Source: Longibaculum muris
Lineage (GTDB): Bacteria > Bacillota_I > Bacilli_A > Erysipelotrichales > Coprobacillaceae
DNA: 42,341 nucleotides
Assembly (NCBI RefSeq): GCF_004343035.1
Contig: NZ_SMCQ01000027.1
Location: 1 to 42,341, forward strand
Reading direction: 5' to 3'
Both the position numbers and the translations under genes were made by a program. Shown here piece after piece: positions 6,385-35,756 of the stretch. Each line of letters begins with the position of its first letter. Within the stretch, counting starts at the first letter, position 1. The notes beneath the pieces are model-generated. The model saw nothing but the letters and a program-made list of their open reading frames with translations, searched no databases and was not told the origin of the DNA.

Positions 6385-7149
6385 ATGAATAACTTTATAA
6401 CAACACTTTTGCAATTTGTTAATAATCCAGATGAACGTGATACAAATTATAATATAGCTTATTGTTTAATTTCACATTGCCATGAATTAGATAAAATGAG
6501 TGTTCAAGATTTAGCTGATGAATGTTATGTATCTGTTTCTACTTTTAATCGTTTTTTTAAACTTTTTGGGTTTAAAAAGTTTGTTATTTTTAAACAATTA
6601 ATTGCTAGTCATGTTGTGATTAGATTGAGTCAAATGCAATATCGTATTAAATTGAAAGATTATAAACAAGTTGAATCAACATTTTATTCATTTTTAAGTT
6701 CAAATGACTATCAAACAGTTGTGAATGCATCAGCTTTTATTATTCAACAATGTTGTGAAACAATTTTAAAATCAAAAAGAATTGTATTAATTGGTTCTGA
6801 TGAAATGATTTCTAATGCATTAAGATTTCAAGGTGATTTTTGTGTAATGAAAAAAATGACAATTAAAGATTCTATTTATTTAGAAAGATTTTTTGTTCCT
6901 AATGAAGATGATTTTGTTATTATTATGACAATGAGTGGGAGGATTGTAGATCTTAATGATGATTTAATGGAACATATAATGGCTCGTCATCCCAAAGCAT
7001 TAATGATTGGAAATAAAGATTATATAAAAGAAAATGGGATGTTTTTACAAATACCAATGGGACTTGATGAAGTTTTAGAAAATATGATTTTAGATTATTA
7101 TTTACAAGAAATTGTCTATACATATGCGAGGGATTATTATGATTGTTGA
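6385..7149 (+). CDS. MurR/RpiR-family transcriptional regulator
   Basis: A 254-residue regulator with an N-terminal RpiR-type helix-turn-helix (about 35-75; SVQDLADECYVSVSTFNRFF) and a C-terminal SIS-like sugar-phosphate-binding domain (about 120-230). The SIS part starts at KRIVLIGSDEM and contains the IIMTMSGRI segment expected at the phosphate-binding loop. RpiR proteins normally sense a sugar phosphate and control a nearby catabolic operon, but no sugar operon adjoins this one. The next gene is a diverged paralogue overlapping by 11 nt, so the two are co-translated and may form heteromers. The promoter carries an inverted repeat over its -10. Targets are unknown. Confidence 0.83.
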   Translation: MNNFITTLLQFVNNPDERDTNYNIAYCLISHCHELDKMSVQDLADECYVSVSTFNRFFKLFGFKKFVIFKQLIASHVVIRLSQMQYRIKLKDYKQVESTFYSFLSSNDYQTVVNASAFIIQQCCETILKSKRIVLIGSDEMISNALRFQGDFCVMKKMTIKDSIYLERFFVPNEDDFVIIMTMSGRIVDLNDDLMEHIMARHPKALMIGNKDYIKENGMFLQIPMGLDEVLENMILDYYLQEIVYTYARDYYDC

Positions 7150-7846
7150 GCAATTAAATACTTTACTAACAATTAGTGATCATGATAGTAATGAATATTT
7201 GATTAGTACTTATTTATTGAATAATTGGAAGAATATTGTGAATTATAAAATGAATGAGGTTCTCATGGAAATTCCAGTTTCCAAATCGACTTTATCAAGG
7301 TTTTGTAAAACTTTAGGATATCGTAATTTTACTGATGTTCAATATCAGTTGTTTTTTGAAATGTCAAAAGTTCATCCTTATAAGAATAATGTGGAATTAG
7401 AAGAAGTTATTCATTTAAAACCGGTTTTAAAGAATAAAAAGAGAATTGTTGTTATTGGAGATGAAAATTCTATGACACCTTTATTGATATATAAACAAAT
7501 CTTTTTTAATATTGGTATAGAATTTGTTATGAAATTTAAAAATAGTAGACCGATTGATGTTTTACAAGAGTTTTGTGTTTCACAAGAGGATATTGTTATT
7601 TATGTTTCTTTATATAAAACAAATTTAGAATTGCTTGCAAATATTTTTGAACATTATATTGAGGTTATAGATTATTTAAGAAAGCAGGATATTTCTTATA
7701 TTTATATAGGACAGATGGTAGATAAGAAAGAAAATGAGGAATATTTTCTACAAATTAAACCATCAAGTAATGTAAGTGATCTTATTTTTCAATTATGTCA
7801 AGCCTTTGAAAAAATCTATGCTCTTTTAAGTGTAGAGAATAACTAA
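7139..7846 (+). CDS. RpiR-like transcriptional regulator, diverged second copy
   Basis: A 235-residue paralogue of the upstream regulator. The helix-turn-helix is recognisable (MEIPVSKSTLSRFCKTLGY), followed by NFTDVQYQLFFEM. The C-terminal domain starts at KRIVVIGDEN. Where active SIS domains carry a serine-rich phosphate loop this protein has VIYVSLYKTN, so ligand binding may be lost or altered. I start it at ATG 7139 because GAGGGA at 7128-7133 lies 5 nt upstream; a TTG 27 nt earlier lacks such a site. It overlaps the stop of the first regulator. No clear terminator follows it. Confidence 0.78.
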   Translation: MIVEQLNTLLTISDHDSNEYLISTYLLNNWKNIVNYKMNEVLMEIPVSKSTLSRFCKTLGYRNFTDVQYQLFFEMSKVHPYKNNVELEEVIHLKPVLKNKKRIVVIGDENSMTPLLIYKQIFFNIGIEFVMKFKNSRPIDVLQEFCVSQEDIVIYVSLYKTNLELLANIFEHYIEVIDYLRKQDISYIYIGQMVDKKENEEYFLQIKPSSNVSDLIFQLCQAFEKIYALLSVENN

Positions 7847-18458: not shown

Positions 18459-18485
18459 AAAGAGACTTCGCTATGAAGTCTCTTT
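18459..18485. terminator. Bidirectional terminator between ABC permease and histidine kinase
   Basis: An 11-bp stem AAAGAGACTTC/GAAGTCTCTTT with A and T tracts on the two sides. The last codons of the minus-strand kinase form part of the stem. Confidence 0.88.
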
Positions 18486-20618
18486 AATGTTAAAGGTTAG
18501 AATAGATTTAAATAAATCACCATCAACTTCAACTTTAAATTGTCCTTTTTGTAATTCAGTAAAGCTTTTAACAATTGCTAAACCTAATCCAGAACCACTT
18601 GTATTTCTAGATTTATCACCTTGAACAAATCTTTCAACAATTTCATTTTCATTAAAAGTCATTTCTGCTTCAGAAATATTCTTAAAAGTAATCTGAATTT
18701 GATGATCTATTTGTATTAAATCAATATATACTCTTGTATTAGCTAAAGCATACTTACTAATATTAATAAACAGATTTTCAAAAATACGATATGTTTTAGA
18801 ACTATCCAAATAACAAATAATCTTTTCTTCACTACAATTCATTCTTACATCTAAATTCTTTTCATCTAGCTTATCTTGACTCTCTAATTGAGCTTGCTTA
18901 ATTAAAGAAACAATATCTACATCAACAAGATCTAAATGAACATTCCCACTATTAACCTTACTCACTTCAAATAAATCATCAATAAGATTTTTAAGCCTCA
19001 ATGAATTTCTTTCCAATATTTCAATATATTTCTTTCTATCTTCATCAATCAACTGATCATTCTTTAATAAATCAATATAAGTAATAATAGAAGTTAATGG
19101 TGTTTTTAAATCATGAGAAACATTAGAAATGAGTTCGGTTTTCATTTTTTGTGATTTTACTTCTTCATTGACTGCTTTTTCAAAGCCATCTTTAATATGT
19201 GTAAATTCATCTTTCAAAGGATTAAATACACCAACATCTTCATTAATCTTAACTCCAAAGTTTCCATTTGATAATTGTCTTGTCGCATTTAATAAGACTT
19301 GATAATCATTTTGAATATCTTCAAATTTTTTCTTTAAAAGAATAAAGATAATAAATGAATAGACTAATGAAAAGAAAATTCCAAAGACAAAAAAGACACT
19401 AATTATAGAAATAATAACAAAATTAAAGAGAACAATTTTTAATACTGAACGATTGATATTATCATTAAAATCAAAATCAACAATCTTATTAAGAATAATT
19501 TGACTGTTTGTAATAATCCAACCTAGACAAGTATTTTCTTTACAATAATTCTTAAATCCTTTATGAAATAAATATTTTATCATATAAGCAAAAATAACAA
19601 ATAACATAAAGAAGATAAACCAAAATCCTATATTGATAATAGGAGTTAAGATTTTATCAAGATTTTGAATACCAAATTCTTGATAAAAATCAATCATGTG
19701 TTTTTGACTAGTGGCTGCGATTAAATACGGACTAAATACATAGAGAGTTCCAGTAACCAAACACCACATAAAAGCTAATATTCCAAATTTAATACGAGAA
19801 ATAACATCTAATAATTTTTGTTCTTTAAATAATTGATAAGGTGTTATCAGTGTTATAAGCATAATAATTGCTATTGCAAAAACAACATAAGGCATTGAAT
19901 ATTTCAGATAATCTGAGGTACTATAGTTTGTTAAATAGACTGATAGATTACTATTAGCAGCTAATTTTTCAGGAACAGCATAAGTAATAGTTAAGTTTTT
20001 AGGATTTTTAAAATTAATATAAGCTTCAGAAGTTATCTCATGATTACTTTCATTATATTCGCTATAAGTTTGAGATTGATGAATCATATAATTATTTAAC
20101 TCACGAGATTGAATTTTATCATTGTGAGAATAATTCACAAATAAAATTCCATCTTGATCAAATTGTATTTGTACATACCACTGATATTTTTTTTGCAATG
20201 CTTGATCATTTTGAATAGAATTTAAACGATCATTTGTATTAGAGATTTGTTTTTTGGTTGTCATATCTGTAGCTTGATAATAGATATCTGTTTCTTTTTC
20301 AAGCTCTCTTTGGGATTGTTTAATACCATATTTGAAATCTTCAATTTCACTTGTAATACCTTCTATATTAGAATTTCCAACGATTTCTAAATACTGATGG
20401 GTATCTATATTTGAATTTTCTTTAGATTTTAATGAACAATCAATAGCGTAATTATATTGTGCAATTTGACTTGCAACATATTCAGTAATCAGTGATTGAC
20501 TGGGTGTTTCTTTACTGATTGTTGATTGAATTGCTGGATAACTTAAATATATCCCAATACTCGTTGCAAGTAATATAACAACAATCATAAAACTTACAAG
20601 ATATTTTTTCTTTTTCAT
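18471..20618 (-). CDS. VanS-like sensor histidine kinase with multi-helix sensor region
   Basis: A 715-residue membrane kinase, long for its class. TM1 is at about 7-27, then an extracytoplasmic domain to about 235, then four further helices between about 240 and 430. A HAMP-like linker follows. The dimerisation domain has SHDLKTPLTS with phospho-accepting His502. The ATPase domain has an N-box (NLFINISKY) and G2 box (SRNTSGSGLGLAI). The usual DxGxG G1 box is replaced by FKNISEAEM, as in several VanS-like kinases. The gene follows its response regulator by 3 nt. The multi-helix sensor suggests membrane-embedded signal detection, for example of envelope damage. Signal unknown. Confidence 0.88.
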   Translation of the reverse strand: MKKKKYLVSFMIVVILLATSIGIYLSYPAIQSTISKETPSQSLITEYVASQIAQYNYAIDCSLKSKENSNIDTHQYLEIVGNSNIEGITSEIEDFKYGIKQSQRELEKETDIYYQATDMTTKKQISNTNDRLNSIQNDQALQKKYQWYVQIQFDQDGILFVNYSHNDKIQSRELNNYMIHQSQTYSEYNESNHEITSEAYINFKNPKNLTITYAVPEKLAANSNLSVYLTNYSTSDYLKYSMPYVVFAIAIIMLITLITPYQLFKEQKLLDVISRIKFGILAFMWCLVTGTLYVFSPYLIAATSQKHMIDFYQEFGIQNLDKILTPIINIGFWFIFFMLFVIFAYMIKYLFHKGFKNYCKENTCLGWIITNSQIILNKIVDFDFNDNINRSVLKIVLFNFVIISIISVFFVFGIFFSLVYSFIIFILLKKKFEDIQNDYQVLLNATRQLSNGNFGVKINEDVGVFNPLKDEFTHIKDGFEKAVNEEVKSQKMKTELISNVSHDLKTPLTSIITYIDLLKNDQLIDEDRKKYIEILERNSLRLKNLIDDLFEVSKVNSGNVHLDLVDVDIVSLIKQAQLESQDKLDEKNLDVRMNCSEEKIICYLDSSKTYRIFENLFINISKYALANTRVYIDLIQIDHQIQITFKNISEAEMTFNENEIVERFVQGDKSRNTSGSGLGLAIVKSFTELQKGQFKVEVDGDLFKSILTFNIKETS

Positions 20619-20621
20619 AAT

Positions 20622-21332
20622 TTATTCCCTGCCTTGTTTTTCAATTTTATATCCAACGCCCCAAACAACTTTTAAATAGCGTGGATTCTTAGGATCAATT
20701 TCTATTTTCTCTCTTAGATTACGAATATGAACCATGACAGTATCAGTACTAATAGCATCTTCTTGCCAAACACTTTCATAAATATTGTCGGCTGAAAAGA
20801 CTTTGCCAGGGTATGACATTAATAATTCTAAGATTTTAAATTCGATAGGAGTCACTTTAACAGCTTTTCCTTCAACTGTTACTGTTTTTGTATCTAAATT
20901 TAATTCTAATCCTCCAACAATATAACTATTTTCATTTTGTTGATGATCTTGAACCATATTTAAATATTTACTATAACGTCTAAGCTGTGAAGAAACACGT
21001 GCTAAAAGTTCCATTGGTACAAATGGTTTTGTGACATAATCATCTGCCCCAATATTAAGTCCAGTAATTTTATCAATATCTTCTGATTTAGCCGATAACA
21101 TAATAATTGGAAAATCATATTTTTCTCTTATTTTCATTGTCATTTGAATACCATCCATAACAGGCATCATAATATCAACAATCGCTAAATGAATTGTCTC
21201 ATGTGATACGATATCTAATCCAGCTTGTCCATTATGTGCCTTTAAGACACGATAACCCTGTGTCTTTAAATAAATCTCAATCGCATTACATATTTCTACC
21301 TCATCTTCAACAATTAATATTGTATATTCCAT
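20622..21332 (-). CDS. OmpR/VanR-family response regulator
   Basis: A 236-residue response regulator, first gene of the pair with the VanS-like kinase. The receiver domain has acidic pocket ED (10-11), phospho-acceptor Asp53 in IVDIMMP, the switch Ser in IIMLSAK and Lys in DDYVTKPF. The C-terminal winged helix (about 140-232) shows VTPIEFKILELLMSYPG and DTVMVHIRNLREKIE, then the VWGVGYKIE wing. GAGGGA lies before the ATG. A likely -10 (TATAAT on the minus strand, 21362-21357) precedes it without a clear -35, which fits an activator-dependent promoter. Target genes are not evident; the closely placed TVP38-like gene lies upstream on the same strand. Confidence 0.93.
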   Translation of the reverse strand: MEYTILIVEDEVEICNAIEIYLKTQGYRVLKAHNGQAGLDIVSHETIHLAIVDIMMPVMDGIQMTMKIREKYDFPIIMLSAKSEDIDKITGLNIGADDYVTKPFVPMELLARVSSQLRRYSKYLNMVQDHQQNENSYIVGGLELNLDTKTVTVEGKAVKVTPIEFKILELLMSYPGKVFSADNIYESVWQEDAISTDTVMVHIRNLREKIEIDPKNPRYLKVVWGVGYKIEKQGRE

Positions 21333-29851: not shown

Positions 29852-31601
29852 AAAAATATTTTTAGTTATTTTTATAGGGTTCTTTCTTGTTGAAACAATT
29901 AATGTTTATATGGATTATCAAAATAATTGTGCAAGCATAGCAAACAATATGGTGAATAATGATATCGTTGACAAACTTGATTTATTAGCACGAAAATATG
30001 AGGATAAAACATATCAAGCAACAAGTTCTCAGATAGTCGAAAGTGTAGAAAAATTGTTTGAGGATCAAAATGGGTATTGTGTAATATTAGATGAACAAAA
30101 TCAAGTTATTTATGAAACAATGAAAAATGAAAACTTTTCCCAAAAACCATATATGATTGTTGTGCCAAAAACTGATGAATATATTGACTATATTCCCGTT
30201 CGTATTAACCTTGATAAACTTTCTCAAGAACAAAGAGATGCGATTGAAAAAAATATTCAAAATCAATATAAAGATCAAGCTATTGTTGTAGAATATGCTG
30301 GAAAAACTATCAATGTAGAAAATGGAGGAGAGGAGATAGAGCCAACTTATTTATCAGTGGATGGTCAAATCTATTTAGAAGATAAAACCCAAAATAGACA
30401 GACTAGTTGTGTTCATATATATTCTAGTCCTCATCTCTTTTATAGAGATTACTATAGTTCATCCAATGAAGAAGCTTATGTTATGAATGATAAAGAGTTT
30501 AGTCAAATATTATATCAATCAGCCTTAAAATTAAATCATGATATGGGCGGTGTTGGAATGGTTAAGATTGATTATGAAAAAATGGATAATAATCTTGTCT
30601 TAACACAAAGAATCTATATAACTTTAAATGATCAAAAGACACTAAGTGTTGTTTTTGTTGATTATTATTTTGATGTCTTTACTTATGCTTTTTCACAAGC
30701 TATATATGATAATATAAAGGTCTATATCTTTTCTCTCATTTTATCTTTCTTAATGAGTTTAGGTATATCTTATATGGTAACAAGACGTATTAAAAAAATA
30801 GATAACATAACAAGGCAGATTGCAGATAATCATTTTGATCTTTCTTTATCAGAAAAACCACGGGATGAATTAGGGACATTATCACATAATATTAATCATA
30901 TGAGTCAACGTTTAAAACTAACTATCCAACAGCTTAATGATGAAATAGAACATGTCAAACAATTAGAATCAGTAAGAAAAGAATTTATAGCTAATTTTAC
31001 TCATGAAATAAAAACCCCTCTAGCAATCATTAATGGATATATAGAGTTGATAGAAGAAACAAAAGATGATCAGAAGAAATCTATATATCTAGAAGCCATT
31101 AATCAAGAAACAGATAAGATTAACCAATTAATTTTAGCTATGTTAGATTTATCAAGATTAGAGTCTGGACAAGTAGAACTTCATATTCAAGAATTAGATT
31201 TAGAAGATATATTAACAACAATCATTGAATCTTTTGCTTCACTTTTAGAAAAGAAACAAATACAGGTCGTAATAACTGGTGAATATTCTACGATTGAAGC
31301 AGATTTATTTGAAATGGAATTGGTTATCAAGAATTTAATCAGTAATGCAATTAAACATACACCACAAAATGGTCATATTTATATTTGTTATGAAAATCAA
31401 ACATTATTCATTGAAAATGAAGGTGAACATTTGAGTGATAAACAAAAAGAGAAAATATGGGATACTTATGTATCAAGTGATAGAGAAGGAACAGGATTAG
31501 GTTTAGCAATTTGTAAGACAGTTTTAGATTTGCATGGTTTTTCATATGATGTTCATAATACAGAAAGAGGCGTTTCGTTCCAAGTGAATTTAAAACATTA
31601 A
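29823..31601 (+). CDS. Sensor histidine kinase, tandem system 2
   Basis: A 592-residue two-TM kinase, paralogue of the one at 27334. TM1 is at about 8-26, an extracytoplasmic sensor spans about 27-295, and TM2 is near 298-317. HAMP follows (RRIKKIDNITRQI). The QQLNDEIEHVKQLESVRKEF segment and FTHEIKTPLAI with His394 match the twin almost exactly. NLISNAIKHTP is the N-box and REGTGLGLAI the G2 box. The sensor domains share little obvious sequence, so the duplicates have kept their output and changed their input. AAGGTGGTG supports ATG 29823. A strong terminator follows. Confidence 0.92.
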   Translation: MKVLKLTLFKKIFLVIFIGFFLVETINVYMDYQNNCASIANNMVNNDIVDKLDLLARKYEDKTYQATSSQIVESVEKLFEDQNGYCVILDEQNQVIYETMKNENFSQKPYMIVVPKTDEYIDYIPVRINLDKLSQEQRDAIEKNIQNQYKDQAIVVEYAGKTINVENGGEEIEPTYLSVDGQIYLEDKTQNRQTSCVHIYSSPHLFYRDYYSSSNEEAYVMNDKEFSQILYQSALKLNHDMGGVGMVKIDYEKMDNNLVLTQRIYITLNDQKTLSVVFVDYYFDVFTYAFSQAIYDNIKVYIFSLILSFLMSLGISYMVTRRIKKIDNITRQIADNHFDLSLSEKPRDELGTLSHNINHMSQRLKLTIQQLNDEIEHVKQLESVRKEFIANFTHEIKTPLAIINGYIELIEETKDDQKKSIYLEAINQETDKINQLILAMLDLSRLESGQVELHIQELDLEDILTTIIESFASLLEKKQIQVVITGEYSTIEADLFEMELVIKNLISNAIKHTPQNGHIYICYENQTLFIENEGEHLSDKQKEKIWDTYVSSDREGTGLGLAICKTVLDLHGFSYDVHNTERGVSFQVNLKH

Positions 31602-31638
31602 AGACAGATATTAATATTATATTTGTCTTTTTTTTATT
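31600..31638 (+). terminator. Intrinsic terminator after tandem system 2
   Basis: A 12-bp stem AAAGACAGATAT/ATATTTGTCTTT (one G-T pair), seven-base loop, run of about ten T. Confidence 0.9.
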
Positions 31639-31662: not shown

Positions 31663-31691
31663 GTCAAACTTTTTTTGTTTTTAAACAGTTA
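31663..31691 (+). promoter_or_regulatory. Possible ECF-type promoter of the sigma factor operon
   Basis: GTCAAAC (31663-31669), 16 nt of T-rich spacer, CAGTTA (31686-31691). The AAC-type -35 followed by a T-rich spacer is typical of ECF sigma promoters, which are often autoregulated. A housekeeping alternative is TTTGTC-N17-TATAAT at 31622-31650, but that overlaps the terminator. Confidence 0.3.
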
Positions 31692-31711
31692 TAAGGGTGA
31701 GGAGGGAGAAA

Positions 31712-32251
31712 ATGAACGAGAAATATTATATAAGACGTATTCAAAAAGGTGATCATAGGGCCCTTGATCACTTTATAGAATTACTCTATCCTCAAGTTTA
31801 TTGTTTTATTTGCCATAAAATTAAGGATGAAAATATAGCAAAAGATATAACTCAAGATACGTTTGTTAGGTTTATACGAGCATTGCCAACATATCATAGT
31901 GAAGGCAAAGCATTAAATTATTTATACAAGATTGCAAGTCATGTTTGTTATGACTATTATAAGAAAGAAAAAAATTATTTAATGTTAGAAGATGAATTAA
32001 TAGCTGATGAAACAATAGATGTACATGAAACGATTATAAAGAATATGACAAGTACACAATTACAAGAAGTGATATATGAATTAAAACCAGCTATGCAAGA
32101 TATTATTATTTTAAAATATTATCATCAATATACTTTTAAAGAAATTTCAGAGATTTATCATATACCTATTTCAACAGTAAAAACAAGGCATTATCAAGCT
32201 TTAATTCAGCTCAAAAAACAAATGGAAGGAGAGCATATAGATGAATATTGA
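31712..32251 (+). CDS. ECF-type RNA polymerase sigma factor
   Basis: A 179-residue sigma-70 family factor of the ECF class. Region 2 (about 15-80) includes VYCFICHKIKDENIAKDITQDTFVRF and LNYLYKIASHVCYDYYKK, covering the -10 recognition and core-binding helices. Region 4 (about 115-172) has LKPAMQDIIILKYYHQYTFKEI and the recognition helix IPISTVKTRHYQALIQLKK. It lacks the long regions of primary sigma factors. GGAGGGAG at 31701-31708 fixes ATG 31712; an upstream GTG lies before that site. The stop overlaps the next membrane gene by 11 nt, the position commonly taken by an anti-sigma factor. It probably drives its own ABC exporter operon. Confidence 0.92.
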   Translation: MNEKYYIRRIQKGDHRALDHFIELLYPQVYCFICHKIKDENIAKDITQDTFVRFIRALPTYHSEGKALNYLYKIASHVCYDYYKKEKNYLMLEDELIADETIDVHETIIKNMTSTQLQEVIYELKPAMQDIIILKYYHQYTFKEISEIYHIPISTVKTRHYQALIQLKKQMEGEHIDEY

Positions 32252-32927
32252 TTATACAGCATTACAAAAAACAAAAGAAGCTTGTCATGAAGAATTAGAT
32301 ATGATTGTGAATAAATATAATACTCATCATTTACAAACAATTTATCAATATATGAAAGTAGAAATGAAAAATCAAATGATTATATCAGTAATAGGAATGT
32401 TACTGATTACACTTGTCAGTTATTTTATGAATGATGCAACAACTGTATGTATTATGCTTTATTTTTTAGTTCTAGGAAGTCAGGCAATATTGGAATATAT
32501 GAAAAATCAAATTTATAGGGTTAAGGAACTTTTATCTGTTTCTTATATAAATGAAGGAAGAAGTTTTTTATATAAAAGTGTAGGTATAGCGATTTTGCAA
32601 CTAGGCATGTTTGGTTTTATATGCATATTGATACCATTTAATCAAATCACATTTATCAAAACTATTTTTTATGCTTTATTACCAGTTTATATATCACAAA
32701 TGTTATCATTACAATTTATGAAGTTCATAACAAATATTTTTGGTGTGTTAATGAGTTATTTTATGATTTATTTAAGTTTGATTTTTGTGATTGATTATTT
32801 AAATATTGTTTCGTATATATCAGTATCAACATGTTATATCGCTATAATAGTTATGGTTTTTATTTATATTGGAAATATCACATTCCTATATAAAGAAAAG
32901 AAAGGAAGAAATTTGATATGGAATTAA
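32241..32927 (+). CDS. Membrane protein in anti-sigma position
   Basis: I do not recognise a named family. The 228-residue protein has a soluble N-terminus of about 45 residues (charged, helical: ALQKTKEACHEELDMIVNK), then about six hydrophobic helices in pairs (about 48-80, 105-140 and 165-215). A cytosolic N-terminal helix followed by membrane helices is the layout of many ECF anti-sigma factors, and the gene directly overlaps the sigma gene and the ABC ATPase gene. No zinc-type HxxxCxxC motif is present; CHEEL carries only a single Cys-His pair. It could instead be a third transporter subunit. The anti-sigma role is inferred from position and topology. Confidence 0.65.
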   Translation: MNIDYTALQKTKEACHEELDMIVNKYNTHHLQTIYQYMKVEMKNQMIISVIGMLLITLVSYFMNDATTVCIMLYFLVLGSQAILEYMKNQIYRVKELLSVSYINEGRSFLYKSVGIAILQLGMFGFICILIPFNQITFIKTIFYALLPVYISQMLSLQFMKFITNIFGVLMSYFMIYLSLIFVIDYLNIVSYISVSTCYIAIIVMVFIYIGNITFLYKEKKGRNLIWN

Positions 32928-33790
32928 CATTAGAACACGTATCTAAAAAATATAAAGAAAATGATGTTGTTAAAGATGTGAATGTGTCTTTAAAGCCAGG
33001 GGTTCATGCATTGTTAGGTGCTAATGGAAGTGGTAAAACAACTTTGATGAGATTGATTTGTGGGCTTTTAAAGGGGGAGGGGTCAATTCATTTTGACGAT
33101 ATAGATGCTTCACTAGAATATGAAAACTTTGCTTCACATATTGGCTATATGCCACAAAATTTTGGCTATTATCCACATTATACACTTAAAGAATTTCTGG
33201 ATTATATGGCAATTGTAAAAAACTTAAATAAAGATTATAGTGAAAAAAGAATCTTAAGTTTAGTCAAAGAATTAGGTTTAGAGAATCAACTGAATAAGAA
33301 AATGAAAACTTTATCTGGGGGGATGTTGAGGAGAGTAGGAATTATTCAAGCGTTATTAAGTGAACCAGAGATTTTAATTCTTGATGAACCTACAGCTGGA
33401 TTAGATCCAAAAGAGCGTATTGTTTTTAGAAATCTCATTGCTTCTTTATCCCAATCTACAATTATTTTGTTGTCAACACATATTGTAAGTGATATTGAAA
33501 GTATTGCCGATGATATTCTGATTATGAAAGAAGGAGAGATTATTATGCATGGAATTTATGAAGATTTGATAAAAGTGATTAAAGGCAAGGTTTGGGAAGT
33601 ATTGGTTCCTAAGCAAGATGCTTCATCACTTATGAAAAGATATCGTGTTGTAAAAAATCATAATCAAAATAATGGAGTTTATATGAGAATTGTATCTGAT
33701 TTAAAACCACATGATGAAGCAATTGCGGTTATTCCTGATTTAGATGATTTATATTTATATTATTTTGTTGAGGAAGTTGCTTATGATTAG
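32918..33790 (+). CDS. ABC transporter ATP-binding protein of the ECF operon
   Basis: A 290-residue ATPase. Walker A is GANGSGKTT (about 33-41), Q-loop region IGYMPQNFGYYPHYT, signature LSGGMLRRVGI, Walker B LILDEPTAGLD and the switch His in LLSTHIVSD. A C-terminal extension of about 80 residues (from KVIKGKVWEV) is typical of YxlF-type and bacitracin-type ABC-2 exporters. The gene overlaps its neighbours by 10 nt on the left and 8 nt on the right. The order sigma, membrane protein, ATPase, permease recalls the sigY-yxlCDEFG operon of Bacillus subtilis. Substrate unknown; antimicrobial peptide export or resistance is plausible. Confidence 0.92.
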   Translation: MELTLEHVSKKYKENDVVKDVNVSLKPGVHALLGANGSGKTTLMRLICGLLKGEGSIHFDDIDASLEYENFASHIGYMPQNFGYYPHYTLKEFLDYMAIVKNLNKDYSEKRILSLVKELGLENQLNKKMKTLSGGMLRRVGIIQALLSEPEILILDEPTAGLDPKERIVFRNLIASLSQSTIILLSTHIVSDIESIADDILIMKEGEIIMHGIYEDLIKVIKGKVWEVLVPKQDASSLMKRYRVVKNHNQNNGVYMRIVSDLKPHDEAIAVIPDLDDLYLYYFVEEVAYD

Positions 33791-35243
33791 GTTAATAAAA
33801 AGTGAGTTTCAAAAGCTTTTAAAGGGAAAATTTATAAGACTATTTATATTGATAAGTATATTGGTAAGTATAGGGATTTGTTATAAAGTTTATTATGGAA
33901 GTGATAATTATAAAAATGTAGGCTATAATTTAACAAATCTTGAAGGAAAACAGTTAAGTGATCTTGAGTTTTGTAAAGCGAAAGATGCTGTTATGCATAG
34001 TTATTCAGGAGAATGGTCACAAGCAAAACAAAAACAAATTATTCAAGATTTAAAAAATGAATTGAAAAAATATCCAAGAGATCAAATAGATGAAAAAGCA
34101 ATGACTAAAGCTTATGGGAAGAATTGGAAGTATTATTTAGAAAAACAAAAAAAGACAGGACTATCTCAAAAGGATATTCAAGAAATAACTAATGAAATAG
34201 GTCAAAGTCCAGAATATTTGACACAAGAAGATGATACAATTGAATTAGAAACAATTTATACAAATGACTCAAAAAGAGAATATTTATCAGAATTATATAC
34301 TCATAATAAACATATACATCAAAGCATTGATAATAATATTGATACCAGTCATTTGATTTCATCAGAATGGAATACTTATTTATTGAATCCTCAATTAAAA
34401 AATGTTTGGGAAGTTGATTATTTAGCAAGTACACTTACACAAAATGAAAAACTAACAAAGGAAGAAACAACAAGTTTTCAGAAGTACTTAATGTCAGAAG
34501 TAGAATCGTTACCTCATCAATTTGAAAGTGGTTTACCTAATCAATTTATGCTTCAAGCTTTATCCATGGTTTATATTTTACCTATATTTGTTATTATGAT
34601 AGCATTAGCTAATATCTTTGCGATTGAAAGAGAATACCAAATGGATCAGATTATTTATCCTACTCAATCAAATCGTCATCGTATAACAATAGCAAAACTG
34701 ATAACAGGATATCTTTTCTCAATTGGATTAATCATCTTACAATTGATTATTGTTTATTTATTTGGAAGTCTTGCTTTTCCTATCCACGGTTGGAATTTTC
34801 TCGTTACAAGTATAGATTTCTTTAGTGTAATCCCAATTATTCCAACCACTTATTTAACACTTCTCATCTATGCAATTGTATTACCTCTATTTGGGGCAAT
34901 TGCAATGGCAACTCTTTCTATGGGATTATCCTATGTATTAAAAAAGAAATTTATAGTTATTATTCCTTTATTTATTCTTGTTATTGTAGGAATGTTTTTT
35001 CAAATGATTTACATTCCAAGTTTTATGAAAACATTCTTTGAATTTTGTCTACCTATAAATATGATACAATTCTATAATTATTTTTTAGAAAATAACATCT
35101 TAGGAATTGGTTCACCTTATATCATTAGTGAAGCATTTGTTATACCTATGAGATGGATTGTTATTGGATTATGGGGATTTATAACAATTTTAGTGATAAG
35201 TATTATATATAAACAATCCTATAAACAGTATATTCGTTATTGA
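33783..35243 (+). CDS. ABC-2-type permease with large extracytoplasmic domain
   Basis: A 486-residue permease. One helix at about 16-36 (FIRLFILISILVSIGICYKVYY) is followed by a hydrophilic, lysine-rich domain of about 220 residues (40-260). Five to six helices occupy 265-480. A helix, large outer loop, then helix bundle is the pattern of ABC-2 subunits that handle peptides or sense them outside. The N-terminal IRLIKSEFQKLLKGK is the usual amphipathic lead of ABC-2 permeases. ATG 33783 follows GAGGAAG and overlaps the ATPase gene by 8 nt; earlier in-frame starts lie deep in that gene. A clean terminator follows. Confidence 0.85.
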   Translation: MIRLIKSEFQKLLKGKFIRLFILISILVSIGICYKVYYGSDNYKNVGYNLTNLEGKQLSDLEFCKAKDAVMHSYSGEWSQAKQKQIIQDLKNELKKYPRDQIDEKAMTKAYGKNWKYYLEKQKKTGLSQKDIQEITNEIGQSPEYLTQEDDTIELETIYTNDSKREYLSELYTHNKHIHQSIDNNIDTSHLISSEWNTYLLNPQLKNVWEVDYLASTLTQNEKLTKEETTSFQKYLMSEVESLPHQFESGLPNQFMLQALSMVYILPIFVIMIALANIFAIEREYQMDQIIYPTQSNRHRITIAKLITGYLFSIGLIILQLIIVYLFGSLAFPIHGWNFLVTSIDFFSVIPIIPTTYLTLLIYAIVLPLFGAIAMATLSMGLSYVLKKKFIVIIPLFILVIVGMFFQMIYIPSFMKTFFEFCLPINMIQFYNYFLENNILGIGSPYIISEAFVIPMRWIVIGLWGFITILVISIIYKQSYKQYIRY

Positions 35244-35268
35244 AATAGCAAAAGTGCTATTTCTTTTT
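35242..35268 (+). terminator. Intrinsic terminator after the ECF-ABC operon
   Basis: GAAATAGC/GCTATTTC stem with AAAAGT loop and TTTTT. Confidence 0.88.
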
Positions 35269-35275
35269 ATTTATC

Positions 35276-35723: not shown

Positions 35724-35756
35724 AAAAGGAGTAGATTTTAAAATTCTACTCCTTTT
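35724..35756. terminator. Bidirectional terminator between the small membrane gene and addA
   Basis: A 12-bp stem AAAAGGAGTAGA/TCTACTCCTTTT. The addA stop codon lies in the loop; A and T tracts serve both directions. Confidence 0.88.

Follow-up and report, generated by a model that had tools for sequence, protein, structure and literature searches.

Organization of the locus

We analysed a 42,341-nucleotide (nt) stretch of DNA from Longibaculum muris (contig NZ_SMCQ01000027.1; hereafter the window) and describe a four-gene operon located at 31.66-35.26 kb. The operon encodes an extracytoplasmic function (ECF) sigma factor, a membrane protein that we call Mem, an ATP-binding cassette (ABC) ATPase and an ABC-2 permease (Table 1). 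Sequence and comparison both show a single operon, which is flanked by two terminators. For the upstream terminator, a strong one that follows the histidine kinase gene HK2, the z value is -5.9 and none of 200 shuffles was equally good. An initial reading of the sequence alone (hereafter the sequence-only reading) had described overlaps of 8-11 nt among the four genes, and the measured values are 11 nt (sigma/Mem), 10 nt (Mem/ATPase) and 8 nt (ATPase/permease). The sigma gene is read here from ATG 31712, the mechanical open reading frame beginning at GTG 31697.

The sigma factor matches PF04542 (E 1.1e-11) and PF08281 (E 2.6e-10), both over cut-off, and contains regions 2 and 4 only. As judged from these regions and its short length, it is an ECF (group 4) sigma-70 factor. 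The ATPase matches PF00005 (E 1.4e-30), and its Walker A, signature and Walker B motifs were seen by eye. The AlphaFold2 (AF2) model of the permease has a predicted local distance difference test (pLDDT) score of 81 and aligns in VIA-align with NosY (Z 18.4) and PmtCD (Z 17.1). About 205 residues lie between its first two transmembrane (TM) helices, TM1 and TM2, close to the 220-residue outer domain initially proposed.

Table 1. Coordinates of the operon and its flanking signals in the window.
Feature	Position	Strand	Basis
Intrinsic terminator after HK2, 12-bp stem then T run	31600..31638	+	-10.9 kcal/mol
ECF-type promoter AAAC-N18-GTTA of the operon	31666..31691	+	Same arrangement in at least 12 of 16 loci and in L087
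Ribosome-binding site AGGAGG of the sigma gene	31700..31705	+	Sequence
ECF sigma factor, 179 aa	31712..32251	+	Pfam regions 2 and 4; best NCBIfam model SigY
Mem, 228 aa, predicted ABC-2-type TM fold with extra N-terminal helix, proposed anti-sigma	32241..32927	+	AF2, VIA-align
Mem residues 5-28, N-terminal helix, proposed sigma-binding element	32253..32324	+	AF2 model, fold alignments, N-termini of second-tier 1-TM proteins
Mem residues 88-98, cytosolic TM2-TM3 loop with E96-L97, proposed coupling helix	32502..32534	+	Conservation, alignment
ABC exporter ATPase, 290 aa	32918..33790	+	PF00005; Walker A, signature, Walker B by eye
ABC-2 permease, 486 aa, ATG 33783	33783..35243	+	AF2, VIA-align
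Permease outer domain, TM1-TM2, ~residues 39-245	33897..34517	+	AF2 model
Operon terminator, 9-bp stem then T run	35242..35270	+

The sigma factor and Mem form a constant pair

Neither Pfam nor NCBIfam gives a match to Mem at E <= 1, and the 16 members of its family gave scattered chance matches only when compared with Pfam. A search of 98 relatives with Mem found nine loci in eight genomes, and searching 315 genomes of the order with a profile gave 16 loci in 14 genomes. Among 395 genomes sampled from the class, matches were confined to four, all from the same order. At each of the 16 loci the sigma gene lies directly upstream of the Mem gene and overlaps it by 1 to 35 nt. All 16 loci have an ABC ATPase of one kind in the vicinity and 15 have a permease, the remaining locus (G076) stopping at a contig edge. 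The gene order is ATPase, permease, sigma, Mem in G047 and G603, and G002 has an additional permease placed between Mem and the ATPase. Since the sigma/Mem overlap persists where the ABC genes come first or where an extra permease intervenes, comparison shows the sigma factor and Mem to be the constant pair, with the ABC proteins as its constant partners. Each locus contains a single Mem but one to three permeases. The gene set, recurring at 16 loci with a promoter far over dinucleotide shuffles, exceeds chance. The initial proposal that Mem has no known anti-sigma motif yet sits in the position of an anti-sigma factor agrees with the lack of domain matches and with this pairing in 16 of 16 loci.

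At one locus (L036, G631) an intact permease gene is followed at 6419-7846 by a second permease-like gene split into three short open frames, either a decaying copy or an assembly error.

Predicted structure of Mem

The AF2 model of Mem, built from nine sequences (pLDDT 83), comprises a helix at residues 5 to 28 followed by six membrane helices, in agreement with the six-helix protein with a soluble N-terminal helix described in the sequence-only reading. About 45 residues precede TM1, and a short helical loop (residues 88 to 98) joins the second and third membrane helices. We compared the model with 352 candidate chains using VIA-align. The first 34 rows were all TM domains of ABC transporters, led by PmtCD (Z 11.2, root-mean-square deviation 4.5, 190 residues aligned), NosY (11.1), ABCA1 (10.8) and ABCG2 (10.7), followed by CcmB (9.9) and others down to LptF (6.9); the first unrelated row scored 6.6. 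In most of these 34 rows the alignment starts near Mem residue 27-36 and so does not include the N-terminal helix.

The permease of the operon, plainly ABC-2 by fold, yields the same top families as Mem. Within the Mem family (16 sequences) E96 is invariant and L97 nearly invariant, and the best profile match between Mem and the permease places the Mem loop on the permease coupling loop (P 0.0017). These three observations support a true relation between Mem and ABC-2 proteins, and Mem is thus predicted to have the six-helix ABC-2 fold with a cytosolic TM2-TM3 coupling helix. The fold is common to Mem, the permease and the ABC-2 exporters PmtCD and NosFY; Mem differs from the latter two by its extra N-terminal helix and by the overlap of its gene with a sigma gene. 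None of the 16 Mem proteins matches Pfam ABC2_membrane, and the true permease of the operon also scores below its cut-off (12.4 vs 31.6 bits). A sequence search of the PDB with the Mem profile gave three weak matches, all unrelated.

The C-terminal LWN of Mem is also common in the family. The overlapping ATPase start ATGGAATTA (window 32918-32927) dictates these residues, which are therefore not counted as conserved function; they exemplify protein conservation driven by gene overlap.

A conserved promoter precedes the operon

The sequence GTCAAAC-N16-CAGTTA lies at 31663-31691, upstream of the sigma gene. We searched the upstream stretches of all 16 loci for its core, AAAC and GTTA at the fixed distance of 18 nt. 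All eight positions were matched at nine loci and at least seven at 13 loci; in 500 rounds of dinucleotide shuffles of the 16 stretches the corresponding means were 0.06 (maximum 2) and 1.65 (maximum 6). Other spacings from 12 to 24 nt gave at most one and six loci, respectively. Several of the 16 loci come from one genus and are not independent. The best match lies 42-51 nt before the start in 12 of the 13 loci. In G447 it lies at -118, with a second seven-of-eight site near the usual place as seen by eye, and in G002, G047 and G603 CGTC stands in place of AAAC, again by eye only. Because at least 12 of the 16 operons have an ECF-type promoter in the same position upstream, autoregulation is very likely.

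A genome search for the full GTCAAAC-N16-CAGTTA promoter, suggested along with the initial reading, returned the operon copy as the only exact one in the L. muris genome. Spacers of 14 to 18 nt also gave a single exact site, leaving targets beyond the operon without evidence in this genome, and the looser ARACTTTT-N14-GTTA gave five matches vs seven for a reversed control. One intergenic promoter-like site (L042, C14:37366) stands ~100 nt before a 436-residue open reading frame, which is within chance expectation. Another match (L041) sits inside an open reading frame, and L044 and L045 are one identical site at two contig places.

An N-terminal module shared among proteins of more distant relatives

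Among 296 genomes we looked for sigma factors of the class that come next in similarity after the family itself (E 3e-39 to 2e-33 vs 6e-63 or better for the family), and six of these second-tier loci (L087-L092) were examined in detail. Four of them (L087-L090) encode the sigma factor, a five- or six-helix protein of 242-259 residues, an ABC ATPase and an ABC-2-like permease. In L091 and L092 the sigma gene is followed by the gene of a 1-TM protein of ~325 residues, with no ABC gene seen within the 4.3 and 8 kb of sequence examined. In six of eight pairs the N-terminal 45 residues of a 1-TM protein match those of the multi-helix protein of L087, L088 or L090 (p 2e-4 to 4e-4, the floor of the test being 2e-4); both pairs with L089 fail. 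This N-terminal module thus sits on one helix in some proteins and on a six-helix body in others, in every case right after a related sigma gene, which is the behaviour expected of a sigma-binding element.

The profile of full-length Mem also scores 31.3 against the second-tier profile, vs a best of 23.0 in shuffles (none of 200 block shuffles as good). The second-tier profile matches the permease profile weakly (P 0.0075), and a search with it for Mem-like proteins found 4 of 237 genomes, its own sources. L087, which belongs to another family, carries the same 26-nt promoter site 48 nt before its sigma gene; the same inspection upstream of L088-L092 gave no exact copy.

G066 and G067, two genomes from a single genus, each yielded no fewer than 11 matches to ECF sigma factors (L071, L077 and others), in open frames of ~330-380 residues, with a long extra region and in large paralogous families. 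The L. muris genome also contains ECF sigma genes followed by genes of ordinary 1-TM proteins of 453 (L047, C2) and 358 residues (L049, C28). Canonical-looking sigma/1-TM pairs therefore coexist with the Mem type in one genome.

Comparison with the Bacillus SigY system

The nearest known system is that of Bacillus SigY. The Bacillus subtilis operon has the order sigY-yxlC-yxlD-yxlE-yxlF-yxlG and is autoregulated. Both operons combine a sigma factor, one or more negative or putatively negative membrane regulators, an ABC ATPase and a permease, and SigY is the closest NCBIfam model for the sigma factor of the window. An ECF-type promoter suggesting autoregulation is found here too, as far as sequence and conservation allow a judgement. 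Excerpts of PMC4326333 name YxlC as the sigma-Y antisigma, YxlD as an antisigma component, YxlE as a negative regulator, and YxlF and YxlG as ABC transporter proteins. Two differences separate the systems: the several small Bacillus regulators are replaced here by one six-helix protein of predicted ABC-2 fold, and the sigma factor misses the SigY cut-off (102.9 vs 194 bits). No match to DUF5345 (PF17280), which we take to be the YxlC family, was found in the 16 Mem proteins at E <= 10. A link to YxlC was also sought in 395 genomes of the class and rejected, all DUF5345 matches being sub-cut-off and, on inspection, in unrelated contexts; B. subtilis itself, as a control, scored over the cut-off. 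The sequence-only reading had seen in this operon a candidate for an undescribed system. That view is partly right, the layout of the operon resembling that of SigY.

Proposed regulation by an exporter-linked anti-sigma factor

We lean towards interpreting the operon as an autoregulated module of ECF sigma factor, anti-sigma factor and ABC exporter, in which Mem would be an anti-sigma factor built on an ABC-2 domain and bearing a sigma-binding N-terminal helix. On this reading, the exporter may act as the gate for its own sigma factor. In the resting state the N-terminal helix of Mem would keep the sigma factor at the membrane. Mem would probably join the exporter, either paired with the large permease or next to it, because the cytosolic coupling loop, by which ABC-2 proteins seat on the ATPase, is kept. 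When the exporter meets its presumed substrate or a membrane disturbance, the complex of Mem and ATPase would change and the sigma factor would be freed. It would then transcribe its own operon from the AAAC-N18-GTTA promoter, the one element of this cycle that the comparison of loci shows, until the additional exporter and Mem recapture it. A bolder version, which we put forward more tentatively, is that the ABC exporter itself acts as the anti-sigma factor: an ABC-2 TM subunit bearing a grafted N-terminal helix would sequester the sigma factor until the ATPase cycle or engagement of the substrate releases it.

Several observations weigh against this proposal. Regarding the fold, Foldseek gave nothing significant for Mem (best NosY, E 0.92), helical bundles can reach Z 13 in VIA-align through arrangement alone, and the Mem/permease profile score was equalled in 2 of 200 block shuffles. 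Regarding the N-terminus, a profile of the N-termini of the window family was matched as well against the second tier in 72 of 200 shuffles, and pairwise comparisons gave 7 of 96 with p < 0.05, about chance, none involving the window protein. The binding of Mem to the sigma factor is inferred, and the 1-TM proteins of L091 and L092 are themselves not proven anti-sigma factors.

The N-terminal weakness for the window family itself would suit an alternative that we consider unlikely but deserving of attention: Mem might be no more than the second TM subunit of a heterodimeric ABC-2 exporter and not bind the sigma factor, which would be controlled through its own transcription or by a factor encoded elsewhere. 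The fold and coupling loop of Mem are those of such a subunit, and an excerpt of PMC8999054 lists ECF257, here compared by description only, as linked to ABC transporters and as having no known cognate anti-sigma factor. A plain subunit, however, accounts poorly for an overlap with the sigma gene that persists in all 16 loci, including those with the ABC genes placed differently in the operon, for the single Mem per locus beside one to three permeases, and for the presence of the N-terminal module on the 1-TM proteins of related systems, where the 4.3 and 8 kb examined showed no ABC genes.

A six-helix anti-sigma factor has a precedent in NrsF (DUF1109), the negative regulator of Caulobacter sigma-F, described in an excerpt of PMC3511200 as a protein of six membrane helices whose N-terminal segment is 25 residues long. 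NrsF resembles Mem in its helices, its short cytosolic N-terminal segment and its adjoining ECF sigma gene. Mem could then be a stand-alone anti-sigma factor of the NrsF kind, its likeness to ABC-2 proteins a coincidence of helical bundles, as the insignificant Foldseek E-values would allow. We find this improbable: the top 34 of 34 VIA-align rows are ABC domains, all above the unrelated rows, Mem has a conserved Glu-Leu and a coupling loop that aligns with that of the permease, an ABC ATPase is encoded alongside Mem in 16 of 16 loci, and the DUF1109 profile matches none of the 16 Mem members. NrsF also has conserved cysteines, and no ABC partner for it appears in that excerpt. No recognisable class I anti-sigma domain was matched in Mem by Pfam or NCBIfam, and the segment before TM1 is below the limit of 50 cytosolic residues given for such domains in an excerpt of PMC7406223.

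Relation to the neighbouring sensor systems

Directly upstream of the operon, the window contains two pairs of response regulator (RR) and histidine kinase (HK) genes, the order being pgm, RR1, HK1, RR2, HK2, operon, a 127-residue gene and a gene at 35738. These sensors had been described as duplicated, and indeed the response regulators are 60% identical and the kinases 47% identical over 330 residues. In the three nearest genomes (L. muris, G005 and G021) the neighbourhood is shared, the operon and RR/HK genes all lying close to one common pgm gene. The synteny check suggested for the block thereby shows a common neighbourhood but not a common order, since G005 has operon, pgm, a 195-residue gene, RR2, HK2, a 128-residue gene and a gene like that at 35738, so that pgm there has the operon on its opposite flank and RR2/HK2 downstream. 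Operon and sensors each occur without the other: RR1-HK1 stands beside groESL-like genes in G012, which has no Mem match; the HK1 sensor was matched in only 6 of 43 family genomes; and G005, G009 and G002 carry the operon with no HK1 sensor match. That 26.6-35.2 kb is one envelope-defence locus uniting the ECF module with the duplicated pair of two-component systems, as first suggested, is very improbable despite the common pgm neighbourhood, because HK2 is divided from the sigma gene by a terminator and a separate promoter, the order differs in G005 and the two parts are found apart, no RR/HK gene being seen directly beside the other operons examined. Envelope defence is a possible role for the operon itself. 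A further pair of response regulator and 715-residue multi-helix kinase is encoded at 18471-21332 of the window, and similar pairs occur in the corresponding neighbourhood of L011 and L012.

Implications

We noticed no description of an anti-sigma factor of ABC-2 fold in the open-licence PMC literature, which is not proof of absence. In Bce-type modules a transporter senses for the regulator of its own expression. The exporter-linked anti-sigma factor proposed here would likewise use a transporter as sensor, but the output of Bce-type modules is a histidine kinase and not a sequestered sigma factor. If the exporter is the anti-sigma factor, transport activity would be read directly as transcription, without a kinase and without proteolysis, in a compact module of four genes and one promoter. 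This would constitute a third wiring from transporter to transcription, the other two being Bce-type kinase sensing and the release of an anti-sigma factor by proteolysis, and would account for a membrane protein family unrecognised by Pfam and NCBIfam. It may also bear on the ECF groups that are listed as linked to ABC transporters and without an anti-sigma factor.

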